Assembly: GCF_002355735.1 (NCBI RefSeq)
Contig: NZ_AP014879.1
Span: forward strand, 2,046,001 to 2,110,000
Reading direction: 5' to 3'
Origin: Sulfuricaulis limicola
Lineage (GTDB): Bacteria > Pseudomonadota > Gammaproteobacteria > Acidiferrobacterales > Sulfurifustaceae
Length of the DNA: 64,000 nucleotides
Under the pieces are notes generated by a model. That model was not told where the DNA came from, ran no database searches, and worked only from the letters and a program-made list of their open reading frames with translations. This document shows, in pieces, positions 11,064 through 21,645 of the stretch. Made by a program: the position numbers and the translations under genes. Numbering within the stretch: the first letter of the stretch is position 1; every line of letters begins with the position of its first letter.

Positions 11064-11861
11064 ATGCGCCCCCTGCACCAGCAGCAAGGGCTCGAGGATT
11101 TCTTCCGGCGCCTGCGAACCGCGCCGGAACGCGTGCTGCTGCTCGATTACGATGGCACGCTCGCGCCGTTCCGGATACGCACGGACGAGGCGCTGCCGTA
11201 TCCCGGCGTACGCGACATCCTCGATGCCATCATGGAAAGTGGCCATACCCGGCTTGTCATCGTCAGCGGCCGCTGGACCCGCGACCTGCAACCCCTGCTC
11301 GGCCTCAGGCGCCTTCCCGAAATCTGGGGTTCACACGGCTGGGAACAGCTCAAGCCCGACGGCCAATACACGGTCGCGCGCATGAACGAAATGGCGCTGC
11401 AACATCTCGCGGACGCCGACACCTGGACCGCCGAGATTGAGGCCCGGGGAGGGCGTTGCGAAATCAAACCCGGCGGTCTGGCCATCCACTGGCGCGGGCT
11501 TGACCAGGACCGGATCGCCGATATCCGCAGCCTCGTGTTCCAGAACCTGTTGATGAAGGAAATGCAAAAAACTCTCGTGTGGCATGACTTCGACGGCGGC
11601 ATCGAACTGCGCGTACCCGGTCGCCATAAGGGATTCGTGGTGAACGCCGTGCTTGCCGAAATGGCCCAGGAGACGGCCGCGGCCTATCTCGGCGATGACA
11701 CCACCGATGAAGACGCGTTCAACGCCATCCGCGGCCGCGGCATCGGCGTGCTGGTGCGCCCGCAATTCCGTGCTACAACCGCGAATTTCTGGCTGCAGCC
11801 ACCGGAGGAATTGCTCGACTTCCTGCGCCAGTGGCATGAGACCAGCGGAGAAATGAAATGA
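11064..11861 (+). CDS. otsB: Trehalose-6-phosphate phosphatase
   Basis: 265 residues. HAD-family phosphatase that removes phosphate from trehalose-6-phosphate. Motif I is LLDYDGTLAPF (about residues 28-38, nucleophile and acid Asp), motif II lies in VIVSGRW (about 71-77), and motif III/IV is YLGDDTTDEDAF (about 211-222). The Lys of the RHKGFVVN segment completes the site. Length matches E. coli OtsB. It is the first gene of otsB-mscS-otsA; its TGA overlaps the mscS ATG. Expression probably depends on the short upstream ORF. Confidence 0.93.
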   Translation: MRPLHQQQGLEDFFRRLRTAPERVLLLDYDGTLAPFRIRTDEALPYPGVRDILDAIMESGHTRLVIVSGRWTRDLQPLLGLRRLPEIWGSHGWEQLKPDGQYTVARMNEMALQHLADADTWTAEIEARGGRCEIKPGGLAIHWRGLDQDRIADIRSLVFQNLLMKEMQKTLVWHDFDGGIELRVPGRHKGFVVNAVLAEMAQETAAAYLGDDTTDEDAFNAIRGRGIGVLVRPQFRATTANFWLQPPEELLDFLRQWHETSGEMK

Positions 11862-12925
11862 ATCTGCTCGGGCAAACCTATTATGGAAACACGCTGCAGG
11901 ACTGGCTGACCGCCCTGGCCGTCGTCATCGCGCTGGCGCTGCTGCTGTATTTCGCGAAGCGCCTCGTCATCGCCCGGCTCGCAGCCTGGGCGCAAAAGAC
12001 CGAAACCCGTCTTGACGATTGCGTCGTGGAAATCCTCGCCGGCACCCGCTTCCTGTTCCTGCTGATCATTGCTTTTTATTTCGGATTGCAGTATCTGGAG
12101 CTGCCGCCAAAGCCGACGCGCCTGATCACGCACTTCACCGTCATCGCGCTGCTGCTGCAGGCGGCGATGTGGGGGAACCGGGGCATCGTCCTGTGGCTGG
12201 ACGATTACCTCAAGCGCAACAGGGAAACCGACGCCGCCGGCGCGACCACCGTGTCGGTGCTGGGCTTCATCGCGCGCGTGGCGCTATGGTCGATCCTGCT
12301 GCTGATGATCCTGGACAACCTCGGGTTCAATATCACCGCGCTCGTCGCCAGCCTGGGCATCGGCGGCGTGGCGGTGGCACTGGCGACGCAAAATATCCTG
12401 GGAGACATCTTTGCCTCGCTCTCCATCGCCATCGACAAGCCATTCGTGATCGGCGATTTCATCGTCGTCGACGATATCCTCGGCAACGTGGAATACATCG
12501 GCCTCAAGACCACGCGCCTGCGCAGCCTGGGCGGCGAGCAGATCGTGTTTTCCAACACCGACCTGCTGAAAAGCCGCATCCGCAACTACAAGCGCATGTA
12601 CGAGCGCCGCGTGGTGTTCAGTTTCGGCGTCGTCTACCAGACGCCGCATGAAAAACTCAAATCTGTTCCGGTCATGGTGCGGGAAATCATCGAGGGTCTG
12701 GAGAAGACGCGTTTCGACCGCGCCCACTTCAAGGAATACGGTGACTCGTCGCTGAATTTCGAGGTCGTCTACTTCGTGCAGGATCCGGATTACAACATCT
12801 ACATGGACATACAACAATGCATCAATCTTTCCCTCTTCGAGGGCTTCGCCCGGGAAGGCATCGAATTCGCCTACCCGACGCGCACGCTGTACCTCCATCG
12901 CGAAACAGGGGTGGTTCATGGCTGA
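11858..12925 (+). CDS. MscS-family mechanosensitive channel
   Basis: 355 residues. Three to four N-terminal membrane helices (about 20-40, 65-85, 95-115, 140-170) lead to the pore helix and the MscS signature GGVAVALATQNILGDIFASL (about 170-189). The beta domain has VIGDFIVVDDILGNVEYIGL, and an alpha/beta C-terminal domain follows. Such channels open under membrane tension and release solutes on osmotic downshock. It overlaps otsB by 4 bases and otsA by 8 bases, so it is translated together with the trehalose enzymes. The pairing suggests coordinated build-up and release of osmolyte. Confidence 0.92.
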   Translation: MNLLGQTYYGNTLQDWLTALAVVIALALLLYFAKRLVIARLAAWAQKTETRLDDCVVEILAGTRFLFLLIIAFYFGLQYLELPPKPTRLITHFTVIALLLQAAMWGNRGIVLWLDDYLKRNRETDAAGATTVSVLGFIARVALWSILLLMILDNLGFNITALVASLGIGGVAVALATQNILGDIFASLSIAIDKPFVIGDFIVVDDILGNVEYIGLKTTRLRSLGGEQIVFSNTDLLKSRIRNYKRMYERRVVFSFGVVYQTPHEKLKSVPVMVREIIEGLEKTRFDRAHFKEYGDSSLNFEVVYFVQDPDYNIYMDIQQCINLSLFEGFAREGIEFAYPTRTLYLHRETGVVHG

Positions 12926-15209
12926 CCAGCCACGTCCACGGACGACACGCTCGCTGCGCCTCGGGCTGCTGGTCGCGGCGATCATCGGCGTCGTCACTGG
13001 TCTGTTCGCCTGGCACCAGGTGCAAAATGAACGCGCCATCGACCTCGATGACGTGGGGCGGCGCGCGCATGCGCTGGCGCAGCAGCTTTCCGACCGGGTG
13101 CTGTACGCGCTGACGCTGCCGGACATACAGGCGCGCGCGCTGTTGCAGCCTCGGGTCGAGGGCTATCAGCGGCTCCTCGGTTACGCGGTGTTTCGCGCCG
13201 ATGGCCGGCTGGTCGCGGCCGGCAAGACCATCTCCGATTTCACCAACAAGCTCGATGGCCCGATGCGCGAGGCATTGCAATCCGGAAATGAAGTCACGCA
13301 ACTCACGCGCGGCGCGGGAATGCAGGTCCATGTTTTTGCCAAGAAGTTTCCCGAGAAAGGCGATGCCGAGGGCGTTCTGGTGGTGGTGCACGACGTGTCC
13401 TATATCGACGACCGCGCGCTCGCCCGGCTCGCGCAGTTCGCCTTCTGGGTCCTGATCGTCTCCCTGCTCGCGGTGGCGCTGGTGGTGGGCAGCACCTGGT
13501 TCGTGTACGAACGGCCACTCACCAAACTCGCCGACTGGATGCGGCGCCTGCGGGTAGATAACGTCGCGGAATCGCCGCCGCCGGGGCTGCCCTCGGGCCG
13601 GTTGCGCAGCGAATCGGATCGGCTGGCGGCATCTTTCCGCGCGGCACGCTCCACCGGCCGGGCGCTGTCGGAAGCGGCGCTGTTTGCCGAACAGGTGTGG
13701 ACGCCGGAGCGGCTGCGCGCGCACGCGGTGGCTTCACTTGGCGAGGCGCATCAGCTCATCGTGGTGAGCAATCGCGAACCCTACATGCACCAGTGGCGTG
13801 ACGGCCGCGGGTACGCGATCGTCCCAGCTGGCGGACTCGTGACCGCGCTTGACCCGGTGCTGCAAGCCTGCGGCGGCGTGTGGATCGCGCACGGCGCCGG
13901 CAACGCCGACCGCGCGAACGCCGATGCCGAAGGCCGGCTGACGGTACCACCCGGCGATATGCGCTACACGCTCAAGCGCGTGTGGCTGACACGCGAGGAG
14001 GAACAGGGCTACTACTACGGCTTCTCGAACGAGGGCCTGTGGCCGTTGTGTCACCTGGCGCACGAACGCCCCGTCTTCCGCGCCGAGGACTGGGAACACT
14101 ATCGCCAGGCCAACCGCCGCTTCGCGGATGCGGTGCTGGACGAGGCGGGGTCGGGCAAGGCCGTGGTGCTGGTGCAGGACTACCAGCTCGCGCTCGTGCC
14201 GCGGATGCTCAAGGAGGCGCGCCCGGATTTGCGCGTCGGCATGTTCTGGCACATCCCCTGGCCCAACCCGGAAGCGTTCCGCATCTGTCCCTGGGGAGCG
14301 GAGATTCTCGATGGCATGCTCGGTGCCGATCTCCTCGGCTTTCACCTGCAGCAATATTGCAACAGCTTTCTCGAGACCGTGGACCGCGTGCTCGAATCGC
14401 GTCTCGACTGGGATCACTTTTCCGCAGAACTGCGCGGCAGCCGCACGCGCGTGCGGCCGTTTCCCATCAGCGTGCAGCCGTGGTCCGAGCGCCACGTGCC
14501 CGGGGAAGATGCGCTCGCGAAGCAGATCACCGAACTCAGAACACAGCATCAGCTGGGGGACGTTTTCATCGCGGTCGGCGTGGATCGCATCGACTATACC
14601 AAGGGCATACCGGAGCGTTTCCGGGCCATCGCGCGATTGCTCGAAAAATATCCGCAGTATCGCGGGCGTTTCACCTTCGTCGAGCTCGGCGCACCATCGC
14701 GCACGCATATTCCGCGCTACCGCGAACACCTGGACGGGCTCGAGGCGCTAGCTGACGAAATCAACTGGAAGTACCAGAGCGAAGGCTGGAAACCGATCCA
14801 TTTTCTCGTCGCGCACCATGACGCCAGAACCGTGCACGCCTTCCTGCGCATGGCGCCGATGTGCATCGTCAGCTCCCTGCATGACGGCATGAATCTGGTG
14901 GCAAAGGAGTACGTGGCGGCGCAATCCGGCGGCGACGGCGTGCTGGTGCTGTCGGAGTTCGCCGGCGCGGCGCGCGAGCTGGCCGACGCGCTGATCGTCA
15001 ACCCGTACGATACCGAGCAATTCGCCGAGGCTGTTCGCTACGGCCTTGAAATGGATCCCGGGGAGCGGCGCGCGCGCATGCAGCGCCTCACCCGCCAGGT
15101 CGAGGAACACAATATCTACCGCTGGGCCGCGAATTTTCTCGCGGCACTCGCCGCTGAGCGCGTGGCGGGCACCGAAGCGGCCGGCGTCGGCAAGGCGGCG
15201 AACTCATAA
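12918..15209 (+). CDS. otsA: Trehalose-6-phosphate synthase with N-terminal membrane sensor-like region
   Basis: 763 residues, against about 470 for ordinary OtsA. Residues 13-31 are a membrane helix; about 32-172 look like an extracytoplasmic sensor-type domain; about 173-195 are a second helix; RPLTKLADWMRRLR (about 200-213) resembles the start of a HAMP linker. The glycosyltransferase-20 domain starts at about residue 280 (LIVVSNREPYM). Catalytic motifs are intact: DYQLALVPRM, FWHIPWPNPEAF, GVDRIDYTKGIPER, and HDGMNLVAKEY. It makes trehalose-6-phosphate from UDP-glucose and glucose-6-phosphate, probably at the membrane. Third gene of the ots operon. Confidence 0.92.
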   Translation: MADQPRPRTTRSLRLGLLVAAIIGVVTGLFAWHQVQNERAIDLDDVGRRAHALAQQLSDRVLYALTLPDIQARALLQPRVEGYQRLLGYAVFRADGRLVAAGKTISDFTNKLDGPMREALQSGNEVTQLTRGAGMQVHVFAKKFPEKGDAEGVLVVVHDVSYIDDRALARLAQFAFWVLIVSLLAVALVVGSTWFVYERPLTKLADWMRRLRVDNVAESPPPGLPSGRLRSESDRLAASFRAARSTGRALSEAALFAEQVWTPERLRAHAVASLGEAHQLIVVSNREPYMHQWRDGRGYAIVPAGGLVTALDPVLQACGGVWIAHGAGNADRANADAEGRLTVPPGDMRYTLKRVWLTREEEQGYYYGFSNEGLWPLCHLAHERPVFRAEDWEHYRQANRRFADAVLDEAGSGKAVVLVQDYQLALVPRMLKEARPDLRVGMFWHIPWPNPEAFRICPWGAEILDGMLGADLLGFHLQQYCNSFLETVDRVLESRLDWDHFSAELRGSRTRVRPFPISVQPWSERHVPGEDALAKQITELRTQHQLGDVFIAVGVDRIDYTKGIPERFRAIARLLEKYPQYRGRFTFVELGAPSRTHIPRYREHLDGLEALADEINWKYQSEGWKPIHFLVAHHDARTVHAFLRMAPMCIVSSLHDGMNLVAKEYVAAQSGGDGVLVLSEFAGAARELADALIVNPYDTEQFAEAVRYGLEMDPGERRARMQRLTRQVEEHNIYRWAANFLAALAAERVAGTEAAGVGKAANS

Positions 15210-18666: not shown

Positions 18667-21645
18667 ATGACTGACCCGACGCACCACGGACGCGGCCAGC
18701 CAATGAGACAACCTCTCTTCACGGGCTTGCGGGCGCGCCTGATCGTCCTGGTGTTGCTGGCGGCTGCCCCGGCGCTGGCGTTCATTCTTTACTCCGGCTT
18801 CGAGATGCGCCGGCAGGCGGAAACGGATGCCCTGGATCGCGCACAACAGGTCATCGCCCATGCTGCCAGCACCCAGCAACAGATATTCCAGGATACCCGC
18901 CAGCTTCTGAAGATTCTCGCCCAGGTCCCGCAGGTGCGCGAATCGAACGGCGTTGTTTGCGGCGCCTTCATGGCCGCTCTGCTGAAACAGTATCCGCATT
19001 ACACCAATCTGGGTGTGGCGCGCCGCAACGGCGAGATCTTCTGCAGCGCGCTGCCGCTCAAGGGGCCCGTCGATATTTCCGACCGGCCTTACTTCCAGGC
19101 CGCCGTGGGTCACCGCGATTTTTCCGTCGGGGAATACCAGATCGGCCGCATCACCGGCAAGCCCGCGATCAATTTCGCCTATCCCGTGCTCGACCAGTCC
19201 GGGGAAGCCCGCACCATTCTTTTCGCCGCGCTCGACCTCGCCTGGCTCAAGCGGCTGGCGGCCGATTCACAGCTGCCGGAGAACTCGTCGTTCACCATGA
19301 TCGATCGCAACGGGACGGTCCTGCTGCGTCACCCCGAGATCGACGGATGGGCGGGGCGTTCCATCGCGGACACGAGCCTGTTCGGCACCATCCGCGCCCG
19401 CGCCAACGGGGTCATGCAGTCTCACGGTCTCGACAATGTCGAACGCCTGTATGCCTTCGCCGCCCTGCGCGAGACCTCGGGCGAGCCGCTGGCCTACCTG
19501 AGCGTCGGCATCCCGGTCACCATCGCCTTCGCCGGCGCCAATGCCAGCCTGCTTCGCGGACTCACGGGCCTGGGCATGGTGACGCTGTTGACACTCGTCA
19601 TTGCCTGGGTCGGCAGCAACATGTTCATCCTGCGACGCGTGAGCGCGCTGCTGGCTGCGGTGCGCCGCGTGTCCGCGGGCGACCTGTCCGCGCGCACCGA
19701 CGTCTCTCCCCGGAACGATGAAATCGGTGAACTTTCGCGCGCCTTCGACAACATGGCGCAAAGTCTCGAACGGCGGGATGCCCGTATCCGCGAAGACGAA
19801 GTCCGCATCGCCCGCCTCAACCGCATATATGCCGTGTTGAGCAACATCAACGGCGCCATCATTCGCATCCACGAACGTGACGCCCTGTTGCAGGAGGCCT
19901 GCCGCATCGCCATGGACGAAGGCCGCTTCCGGCTCGCTTGCATCAGCCGGATTGACTCCGAAACCTTCCGGCTCATTCCTGCCTATATTTCGGGAAACGA
20001 CCGGGACATGCTCCATGAAATCCGCCTGCGGCTCCCGGAAAACGCGGCGGACGACACCCATGGCATCGGCGCTGCCCTGCTCGTCGGCGAACCCGTGGTG
20101 GTCAACGATCTGGCGCAGGACGTGCGCGCGGGCGCGAACCGGGATATCGCGCTGCGCCACGGTTACCGCTCCTGTGTGCTGTTGCCACTGAAAATTTCCG
20201 GCAAACTGACCGGTTGCCTTCACCTGTACGCGGACGAGTCGGGTTTTTTCGACGACCAGGAAATGAAGCTGCTGCAGGAACTGGCGGCGGACATCTCGCT
20301 CGGGCTCGAACACATTGAAAACGAGGGAAAACTCCACAACCTGGCGAATTACGATCTCCTGACCGGACTGCCCAACCGTGATCTGTTCCGCGACCGGCTG
20401 GACCAGTCCCTGTCGCGCGCGCGGCATCACGGGCGCCATGTCGCCGTCATGATGCTGCACATCGACCGGCTCAAGGAGATCAACAGCCTCCACGGCCAGC
20501 ATGTCGGCGACATGCTGCTGCGGGAAGCCGCGCGGCGCCTGCGCGGGCTGGTGCGTGAGGGCGATACCGTGGCGCGTGCCGGCAGCTCGGTTTTCAGCGC
20601 CGCGCTCGCCGACGTGGCGCATACCCGGGATGTCATCATGGTCGCGCGCAAGATCACCAACGTCTTTGCCGAACCCATTGACCTGGAAGACACGGAATTC
20701 TATGTCACCATCCGCATCGGCATCGCGGTTTCCCCGGAAGACGGGGATGACGTGGACACCATCCTGAAAAACGCCGAGGTGGCCCTCAACATATCGCAAC
20801 GGGAGGCAGGCAGCACCTATCGCTTCTACACGCCGGAGATCAACACGCGCGCCCTGGAGCGGTTCGAGATCGAACAGGAACTGCGCCACGCGCTGGAACG
20901 GAATGAGTTCATCGTGCACTATCAGCCGGTGGTGGACATGAACACCGGAACCATTACCGGCTGCGAGGCCTTGCTGCGCTGGAACAACCAGACGCTCGGC
21001 GCGGTGTCGCCGGGCAGGTTCATCCCGGTCGCGGAGGAAACCGACCTGATCGTCCCCATCGGCGAGTGGGTGCTGCAAACCGCCTGCGAACAGGGTCGTC
21101 GCTGGCACGAGCAGGGCCTGAACCTGCGGCTGGCGGTCAACATCTCGGCCAAACAGCTGCGCCGCGCCGAATTCCCGGATACCGTGCTGACGATACTCCG
21201 GAATACCGGCGTGGATCCGGCGTCTTCCTCCCTGACCATGGAAATCACCGAATCCGAATTGATGGAAGACGCGGAGGGAACGGCGAAGCTCCTGAAAAAC
21301 CTGCAGGCCCGGGGACTGTCGATATCGATCGACGACTTCGGCACCGGCTATTCCTCGCTGAGCTACCTCAAGCGCCTGCCGGTCGACACACTCAAGATCG
21401 ATATTTCATTCATCCGCGACATCACCCGGTCGCATGACGATGCCGCCATCGTCAAGGCCATCATCGCGCTGGCGCACAGCCTCGACATGAAAGTCGTCGC
21501 CGAAGGCGTCGAAACCCGGGAACAATTCACCGCCCTGCGCGCCATCGGCTGCGACGCCGCCCAGGGATTCCTGTTCAGCCCGGCGGTGCTGGCGGCGGAT
21601 TTTGAAAAGCTGAACGGGCGCTGCTTCACCCCGCAACTTTCATAG
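18667..21645 (+). CDS. Cache-HAMP-GAF-GGDEF-EAL signalling protein, probable c-di-GMP phosphodiesterase
   Basis: 992 residues. Helix at about 20-38, extracytoplasmic Cache-type sensor (about 40-290), second helix (about 295-320), HAMP (about 320-375), GAF (about 400-550), GGDEF (about 560-715) and EAL (about 735-985). The cyclase site is broken: GSSVF stands where GGDEF should be, though REGD, the I-site, is kept. The EAL site is intact (CEALLRW, NISAKQL, EITESEL, IDDFGTGYSSL, VVAEGVE). It therefore most likely degrades c-di-GMP, with the GGDEF domain acting as a regulator. The upstream 237 bases hold no other gene. Confidence 0.9.
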   Translation: MTDPTHHGRGQPMRQPLFTGLRARLIVLVLLAAAPALAFILYSGFEMRRQAETDALDRAQQVIAHAASTQQQIFQDTRQLLKILAQVPQVRESNGVVCGAFMAALLKQYPHYTNLGVARRNGEIFCSALPLKGPVDISDRPYFQAAVGHRDFSVGEYQIGRITGKPAINFAYPVLDQSGEARTILFAALDLAWLKRLAADSQLPENSSFTMIDRNGTVLLRHPEIDGWAGRSIADTSLFGTIRARANGVMQSHGLDNVERLYAFAALRETSGEPLAYLSVGIPVTIAFAGANASLLRGLTGLGMVTLLTLVIAWVGSNMFILRRVSALLAAVRRVSAGDLSARTDVSPRNDEIGELSRAFDNMAQSLERRDARIREDEVRIARLNRIYAVLSNINGAIIRIHERDALLQEACRIAMDEGRFRLACISRIDSETFRLIPAYISGNDRDMLHEIRLRLPENAADDTHGIGAALLVGEPVVVNDLAQDVRAGANRDIALRHGYRSCVLLPLKISGKLTGCLHLYADESGFFDDQEMKLLQELAADISLGLEHIENEGKLHNLANYDLLTGLPNRDLFRDRLDQSLSRARHHGRHVAVMMLHIDRLKEINSLHGQHVGDMLLREAARRLRGLVREGDTVARAGSSVFSAALADVAHTRDVIMVARKITNVFAEPIDLEDTEFYVTIRIGIAVSPEDGDDVDTILKNAEVALNISQREAGSTYRFYTPEINTRALERFEIEQELRHALERNEFIVHYQPVVDMNTGTITGCEALLRWNNQTLGAVSPGRFIPVAEETDLIVPIGEWVLQTACEQGRRWHEQGLNLRLAVNISAKQLRRAEFPDTVLTILRNTGVDPASSSLTMEITESELMEDAEGTAKLLKNLQARGLSISIDDFGTGYSSLSYLKRLPVDTLKIDISFIRDITRSHDDAAIVKAIIALAHSLDMKVVAEGVETREQFTALRAIGCDAAQGFLFSPAVLAADFEKLNGRCFTPQLS

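Follow-up and report, generated by a model that had tools for sequence, protein, structure and literature searches.

An otsB-mscS-otsA locus with an extended OtsA

Within the 64,000-nucleotide window (i.e., the whole stretch of DNA that was analyzed), the forward strand carries otsB, encoding trehalose-6-phosphate (T6P) phosphatase, at positions 11064-11861 (TIGR00685, 91.8 bits against a cut-off of 68.05; PF02358, 3.8e-19), followed by mscS, encoding a small-conductance mechanosensitive channel, at 11858-12925 (PF00924, PF21082, and PF21088, all over cut-off), and by otsA at 12918-15209, an open reading frame of 763 amino acids. The 4-nt overlap between otsB and mscS and the 8-nt overlap between mscS and otsA indicate a single otsB-mscS-otsA operon, with otsB as its first gene. 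Along the 763-residue protein, a transmembrane (TM) helix, a periplasmic domain, a second TM helix, a HAMP-like linker, and a coiled helix precede a complete OtsA.

The first-pass annotation had assigned about 275 extra N-terminal residues to this OtsA, and the count holds: the ATG lies 278 codons ahead of the OtsA domain, which begins only at residue 279, and a Shine-Dalgarno-like AGGGG element (12907-12911) has its 3' end 6 nt upstream of that ATG. Were the extension an annotation artefact, the actual protein would be soluble and start near residue 265, and there is a GTG codon 19 codons before the OtsA domain; no ATG is present in this open reading frame within 70 codons upstream of the domain. 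In close and Patescibacterial relatives, however, the start codon is found 271-282 codons before the OtsA domain, in the same frame, and about 20 close relatives share the start as well as the N-terminal module with its two TM helices and its sensor. For residues 1-275, dN/dS (Nei-Gojobori) is 0.116 against a 90%-identical homolog (L002) and 0.24 and 0.28 against two homologs that are ~80% identical (L003 and L004, respectively), and the predicted fold of this region is coherent. Judged from these sequence comparisons, the N-terminal part is real and under purifying selection, which, together with the conserved start, TM helices, and sensor, speaks against both an unconserved N terminus and a start near residue 265; given the shared start and the low dN/dS, we dropped the artefact reading as extremely improbable. 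Except in the closest pair, divergence is faster in the sensor than in the linker and the catalytic domain, and because a sensor that outpaces its linker and enzyme while under purifying selection is a receptor-like pattern, we count this in favor of a receptor function.

Predicted structure of the OtsA domain and the N-terminal module

The catalytic OtsA (GT20) domain spans residues 279-745 (13752-15152; PF00982, 6.4e-122, 408.1 bits against a gathering score of 32.5) and the 2.86-Mb genome contains no other GT20 match. Foldseek matches the full-length AlphaFold model (pLDDT 84.3) to the OtsA structure 5jio with E = 2.1e-38 and a TM-score by target of 0.91. All catalytic motifs of OtsA had been reported as present, and every catalytic position that we checked is there: the catalytic and G6P residues R286, Y366, D421, Q423, H445, R557, K562, R595, D656, and E664, which have equivalents in E. 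coli OtsA, are found in the protein, and across 36 members of the family the catalytic residues vary little or not at all. All five G6P contacts reported for the mycobacterial (M. thermoresistibile) enzyme (PMC6879718) align in the fusion, where the donor-site residues are also present; among the 36 relatives, almost every one of these positions is invariant. The score against the OtsA equivalog model TIGR02400 falls short of the cut-off (434.6 vs. 564.85 bits), which points to a divergent subfamily, and OtsA was therefore assigned by fold, residues, and context. The same shortfall would also fit a domain that made a related product (e.g., glucosylglycerol-phosphate) instead of T6P, but the GgpS score (284.9) is lower than the OtsA score, the five G6P contacts align, and otsB adjoins, so that we consider such a product very unlikely. 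Because otsB is adjacent and 12 of the 13 carrier genomes of a class-wide sample (see below) have no GT20 match besides the extended OtsA, the fusion OtsA is probably the working T6P synthase of the genomes that carry it.

Hydropathy analysis identifies two TM segments in the open reading frame, at residues ~12-35 (12951-13022) and ~169-195 (13422-13502), and an AlphaFold2 model of the N-terminal region, built from a 36-member alignment (pLDDT 80.8), has two long helices there, at residues 9-64 and 161-197; by the positive-inside rule, the charges place the N terminus in the cytoplasm. The segment between the TM helices (residues ~36-160; 13023-13397) is modeled as a periplasmic PAS/Cache-type sensor, with a PAS-like beta-alpha-beta fold at about residues 65-160 (strands 86-93, 98-101, 126-132, 135-144, and 152-159; helix 105-122) for which the model is confident (pLDDT mostly 77-93). 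Modeling of this region, as proposed in the first-pass annotation, thus returns a folded sensor between two helices; the two membrane helices bracketing an extracytoplasmic domain stand as described there, with a loop of about 125 residues instead of ~140.

The best Foldseek matches of the N-terminal model are to the extracellular sensor of WalK/YycG, followed by the sensors of KinD, Tlp3, and CitA. The crystal structure of the WalK sensor (4ywz) is matched with E = 5.2e-5 and a TM-score by target of 0.68, and 9a5d (WalK/YycG), an integrative model and not a crystal structure, with E = 2.3e-8 over 280 columns that cover the whole N terminus. Only the fold comparison succeeded: a profile of the sensor sequence found nothing significant in the PDB, and Pfam, Cache models included, gave no significant match to the N terminus of the fusion protein itself. 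The sensors of some relatives do match Pfam models (Cache_WalK, 5.4e-7; dCache_1, 7.8e-6; CHASE8, 1.7e-5), and histidine-kinase and DgcN models are also matched by some members. On the predicted structure, then, the periplasmic part is a PAS/Cache-type sensor, closest to that of the WalK/YycG histidine kinase; we recognized no ligand-binding motif in this protein's sensor. It should be noted that, in a second branch of OtsA sensors, two Cys residues exactly 19 residues apart are present in the periplasmic domain of 11 out of 11 proteins (L041-L050 and L052; alignment A1), and that this pair, which may form a disulfide or sense redox conditions, is absent from the sensors of the branch studied here and from those of Patescibacteria.

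After TM helix 2, the model continues with helices at residues 200-214 and 226-257. Using hhalign, the linker at residues 199-244 (13512-13649) was matched to 15 HAMP domains of the same genome with a probability of 90-95% (P = 1e-6 to 3e-8) over the HAMP length and in the AS1-connector-AS2 pattern, compared with 0.1% for two control segments. PF00672 was not reported for this protein at E ≤ 1, nor does it appear among the 25 Pfam families listed for the 36 members. Because the profile comparison supports the assignment and the PF00672 gathering score is not reached, we call the linker HAMP-like and not HAMP; the HAMP-like linker proposed earlier is thereby borne out by profile-profile comparison, though it lies below Pfam detection. 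The long signaling helix that leads from the linker to the enzyme (residues 226-257; 13593-13688) has a pLDDT of only about 55-75 and, with its join to the enzyme, is where the models are least certain. The window also encodes, 3.5 kb downstream at 18667-21645, a large HAMP and GGDEF/EAL-like protein with a periplasmic sensor, the HAMP of which matches PF00672 (L130).

Distribution and gene neighborhoods of membrane-bound OtsAs

Full-length homologs with 57-90% identity were found by a genome scan in Gammaproteobacteria, Competibacter/Contendobacter, Muproteobacteria, and some Acidobacteria-labeled MAGs, the labels of which may be misassigned because the sequences nest among gammaproteobacterial ones; full-length homologs in Patescibacteria are about 40% identical. 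Homologous two-TM sensors are present in Patescibacteria and in other Proteobacteria, and the other classes in a phylum sample contain further two-TM and single-TM forms. A class-wide sample of 369 genomes contains 48 with a GT20 match over cut-off, and 13 of these 48 have an OtsA with a long N-terminal extension that is homologous or similarly shaped. Among plasmid records, nothing matched over 80% of the query.

In a tree inferred by maximum likelihood from 78 catalytic domains (quick search; midpoint root for drawing only), a strongly supported branch separates all 42 membrane forms from 31 canonical soluble OtsAs; soluble relatives from Gemmata, two Patescibacteria, and L125 lie on the membrane-form side. 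By this grouping of catalytic-domain sequences, the fusion is a member of a distinct clade of membrane-bound OtsAs, which takes in Proteobacteria, including Competibacter, as well as Patescibacteria. The same fusion, for which a search had been suggested, is thus conserved in several bacterial groups, and any rarity that the first-pass annotation might imply proves wrong on the genome scan, the class sample, and the tree alike: the receptor-like OtsA fusion is an overlooked, fairly common variant and forms a widespread subfamily. OtsAs that combine a single TM helix with a short linker and lack a sensor are seen in L051 and L053-L060, for which the label rhizobial is a guess.

The mscS gene recurs next to otsA genes of different types, soluble ones included (L075-L078 and L080). 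The copy at the present locus is 57-63% identical to those beside a soluble canonical otsA in L076, L077, L078, and L080, the otsB-mscS-otsA order is found with a soluble otsA in L076 and L077, and an mscS-family gene is adjacent in seven of the nine members of that soluble clade if two MscK-sized genes are included. Both states occur in one genus (G168 with a membrane otsA, G284 with a soluble one), and L003 has the same locus context without mscS. At the place of mscS, a gap of ~600 codons separates otsB from the fusion otsA in L006, L008, L009, L010, L018, L084, and L093; wherever the sequence was inspected, the gap holds a GH15-like gene, identified from the sequence.

Proposed receptor output and comparison with known systems

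The suggestion of a direct enzyme-receptor fusion finds structural support in the Cache/PAS sensor, the HAMP-like linker, and the intact OtsA. Building on the computed architecture, topology, folds, conservation, selection, catalytic residues, and operon, our main reading, to which we give a probability of about 60%, is that the otsA fusion encodes a transmembrane receptor that delivers its output directly as T6P synthesis. The periplasmic Cache/PAS domain, held by two membrane helices, would sense an extracytoplasmic condition, possibly an osmotic or envelope-related cue, and the change would be relayed through the HAMP-like linker and helix, perhaps by a dimer rearrangement, to the cytoplasmic OtsA, so that the sensor would regulate the enzyme by altering the rate of T6P synthesis. 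OtsB of the same operon would then complete trehalose, and the co-encoded MscS, which may work with the trehalose pathway, could vent solute upon a rise in turgor. Mycobacterial OtsA closes as helix 1 at its N terminus undergoes large shifts (PMC6879718); this suggests, by analogy, a route by which the N-terminal coiled helix might influence catalysis.

The main rival is that the N terminus serves as an anchor or scaffold only, placing OtsA at the inner membrane (e.g., near MscS) or dimerizing it without passing on a signal. It owes this position to the rhizobial-type relatives, which keep a single TM helix and dispense with the sensor, indicating that membrane attachment alone has been selected somewhere; mscS in the same operon fits it as well, as does the second paralog of G267 (L048), a membrane-type OtsA with TM1 and a sensor that has lost TM2 and whose topology or function must consequently differ. 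An anchor, however, needs neither a folded sensor under purifying selection nor a HAMP-like linker, and these are retained across distant groups, so that we regard anchoring without signaling as possible but unlikely. The receptor reading can also be taken further, to a self-contained turgor module based on trehalose in which the receptor directly sets T6P synthesis and MscS releases solute, bypassing transcription and second messengers; the fusion would then be a one-protein sensor-effector circuit and represent a class of receptors that deliver a compatible-solute precursor as their output. This extension is speculative, and we hold it to be doubtful.

Accounts of how bacteria control trehalose synthesis usually center on transcription (RpoS) and on effectors in the cytoplasm. 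Allosteric effectors of OtsA have been described (PMC6879718). If a receptor is hard-wired to OtsA, an extracytoplasmic cue would set the flux toward this stress-protecting sugar in a single step, and a biosynthetic enzyme from stress metabolism would join the outputs known for the Cache-HAMP input module. The two-TM, one-TM, and soluble members of the clade provide natural controls, and the receptor idea is testable in vitro.

The fusion combines two known modules in an arrangement for which we found no description in the open-access literature, although an account may exist elsewhere; a Salinicola paper (PMC5518125) proved unrelated. With canonical OtsA (CAZy GT20; E. coli 1uqu, M. thermoresistibile 5jio), it shares the GT-B fold, the catalytic and G6P residues, and the linkage to otsB, but its N terminus is longer by 275 residues, which contain a sensor and two TM helices, and it lies in a clade separate from the 31 soluble GT20 proteins. 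The WalK/YycG histidine kinase has the same input module (TM - Cache sensor - TM - HAMP-like), with a PAS domain and kinase core as output in place of a sugar-phosphate synthase. In DgcN/YfiN, to which two fusion members show weak profile similarity, and in other transmembrane receptor-enzymes, a periplasmic sensor and linker control a cytoplasmic catalytic domain, as proposed here for the fusion; their outputs, however, are second messengers or protein phosphorylation, whereas that of the fusion would be a compatible-solute precursor. Finally, the msc-gt-tpsp operon of Thermoproteus tenax, in which a channel is co-transcribed with a T6P synthase and for which it has been proposed that synthesis takes place under stress and that the channel provides release, resembles the present operon in joining a mechanosensitive channel to T6P synthase (PMC3634074). 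Its authors held the operon structure to be unique to Thermoproteales (PMC3634074), a claim that the present data qualify for the channel-synthase pairing alone. In T. tenax, TPSP is activated by a glycosyltransferase and there is no receptor fusion (PMC3634074).
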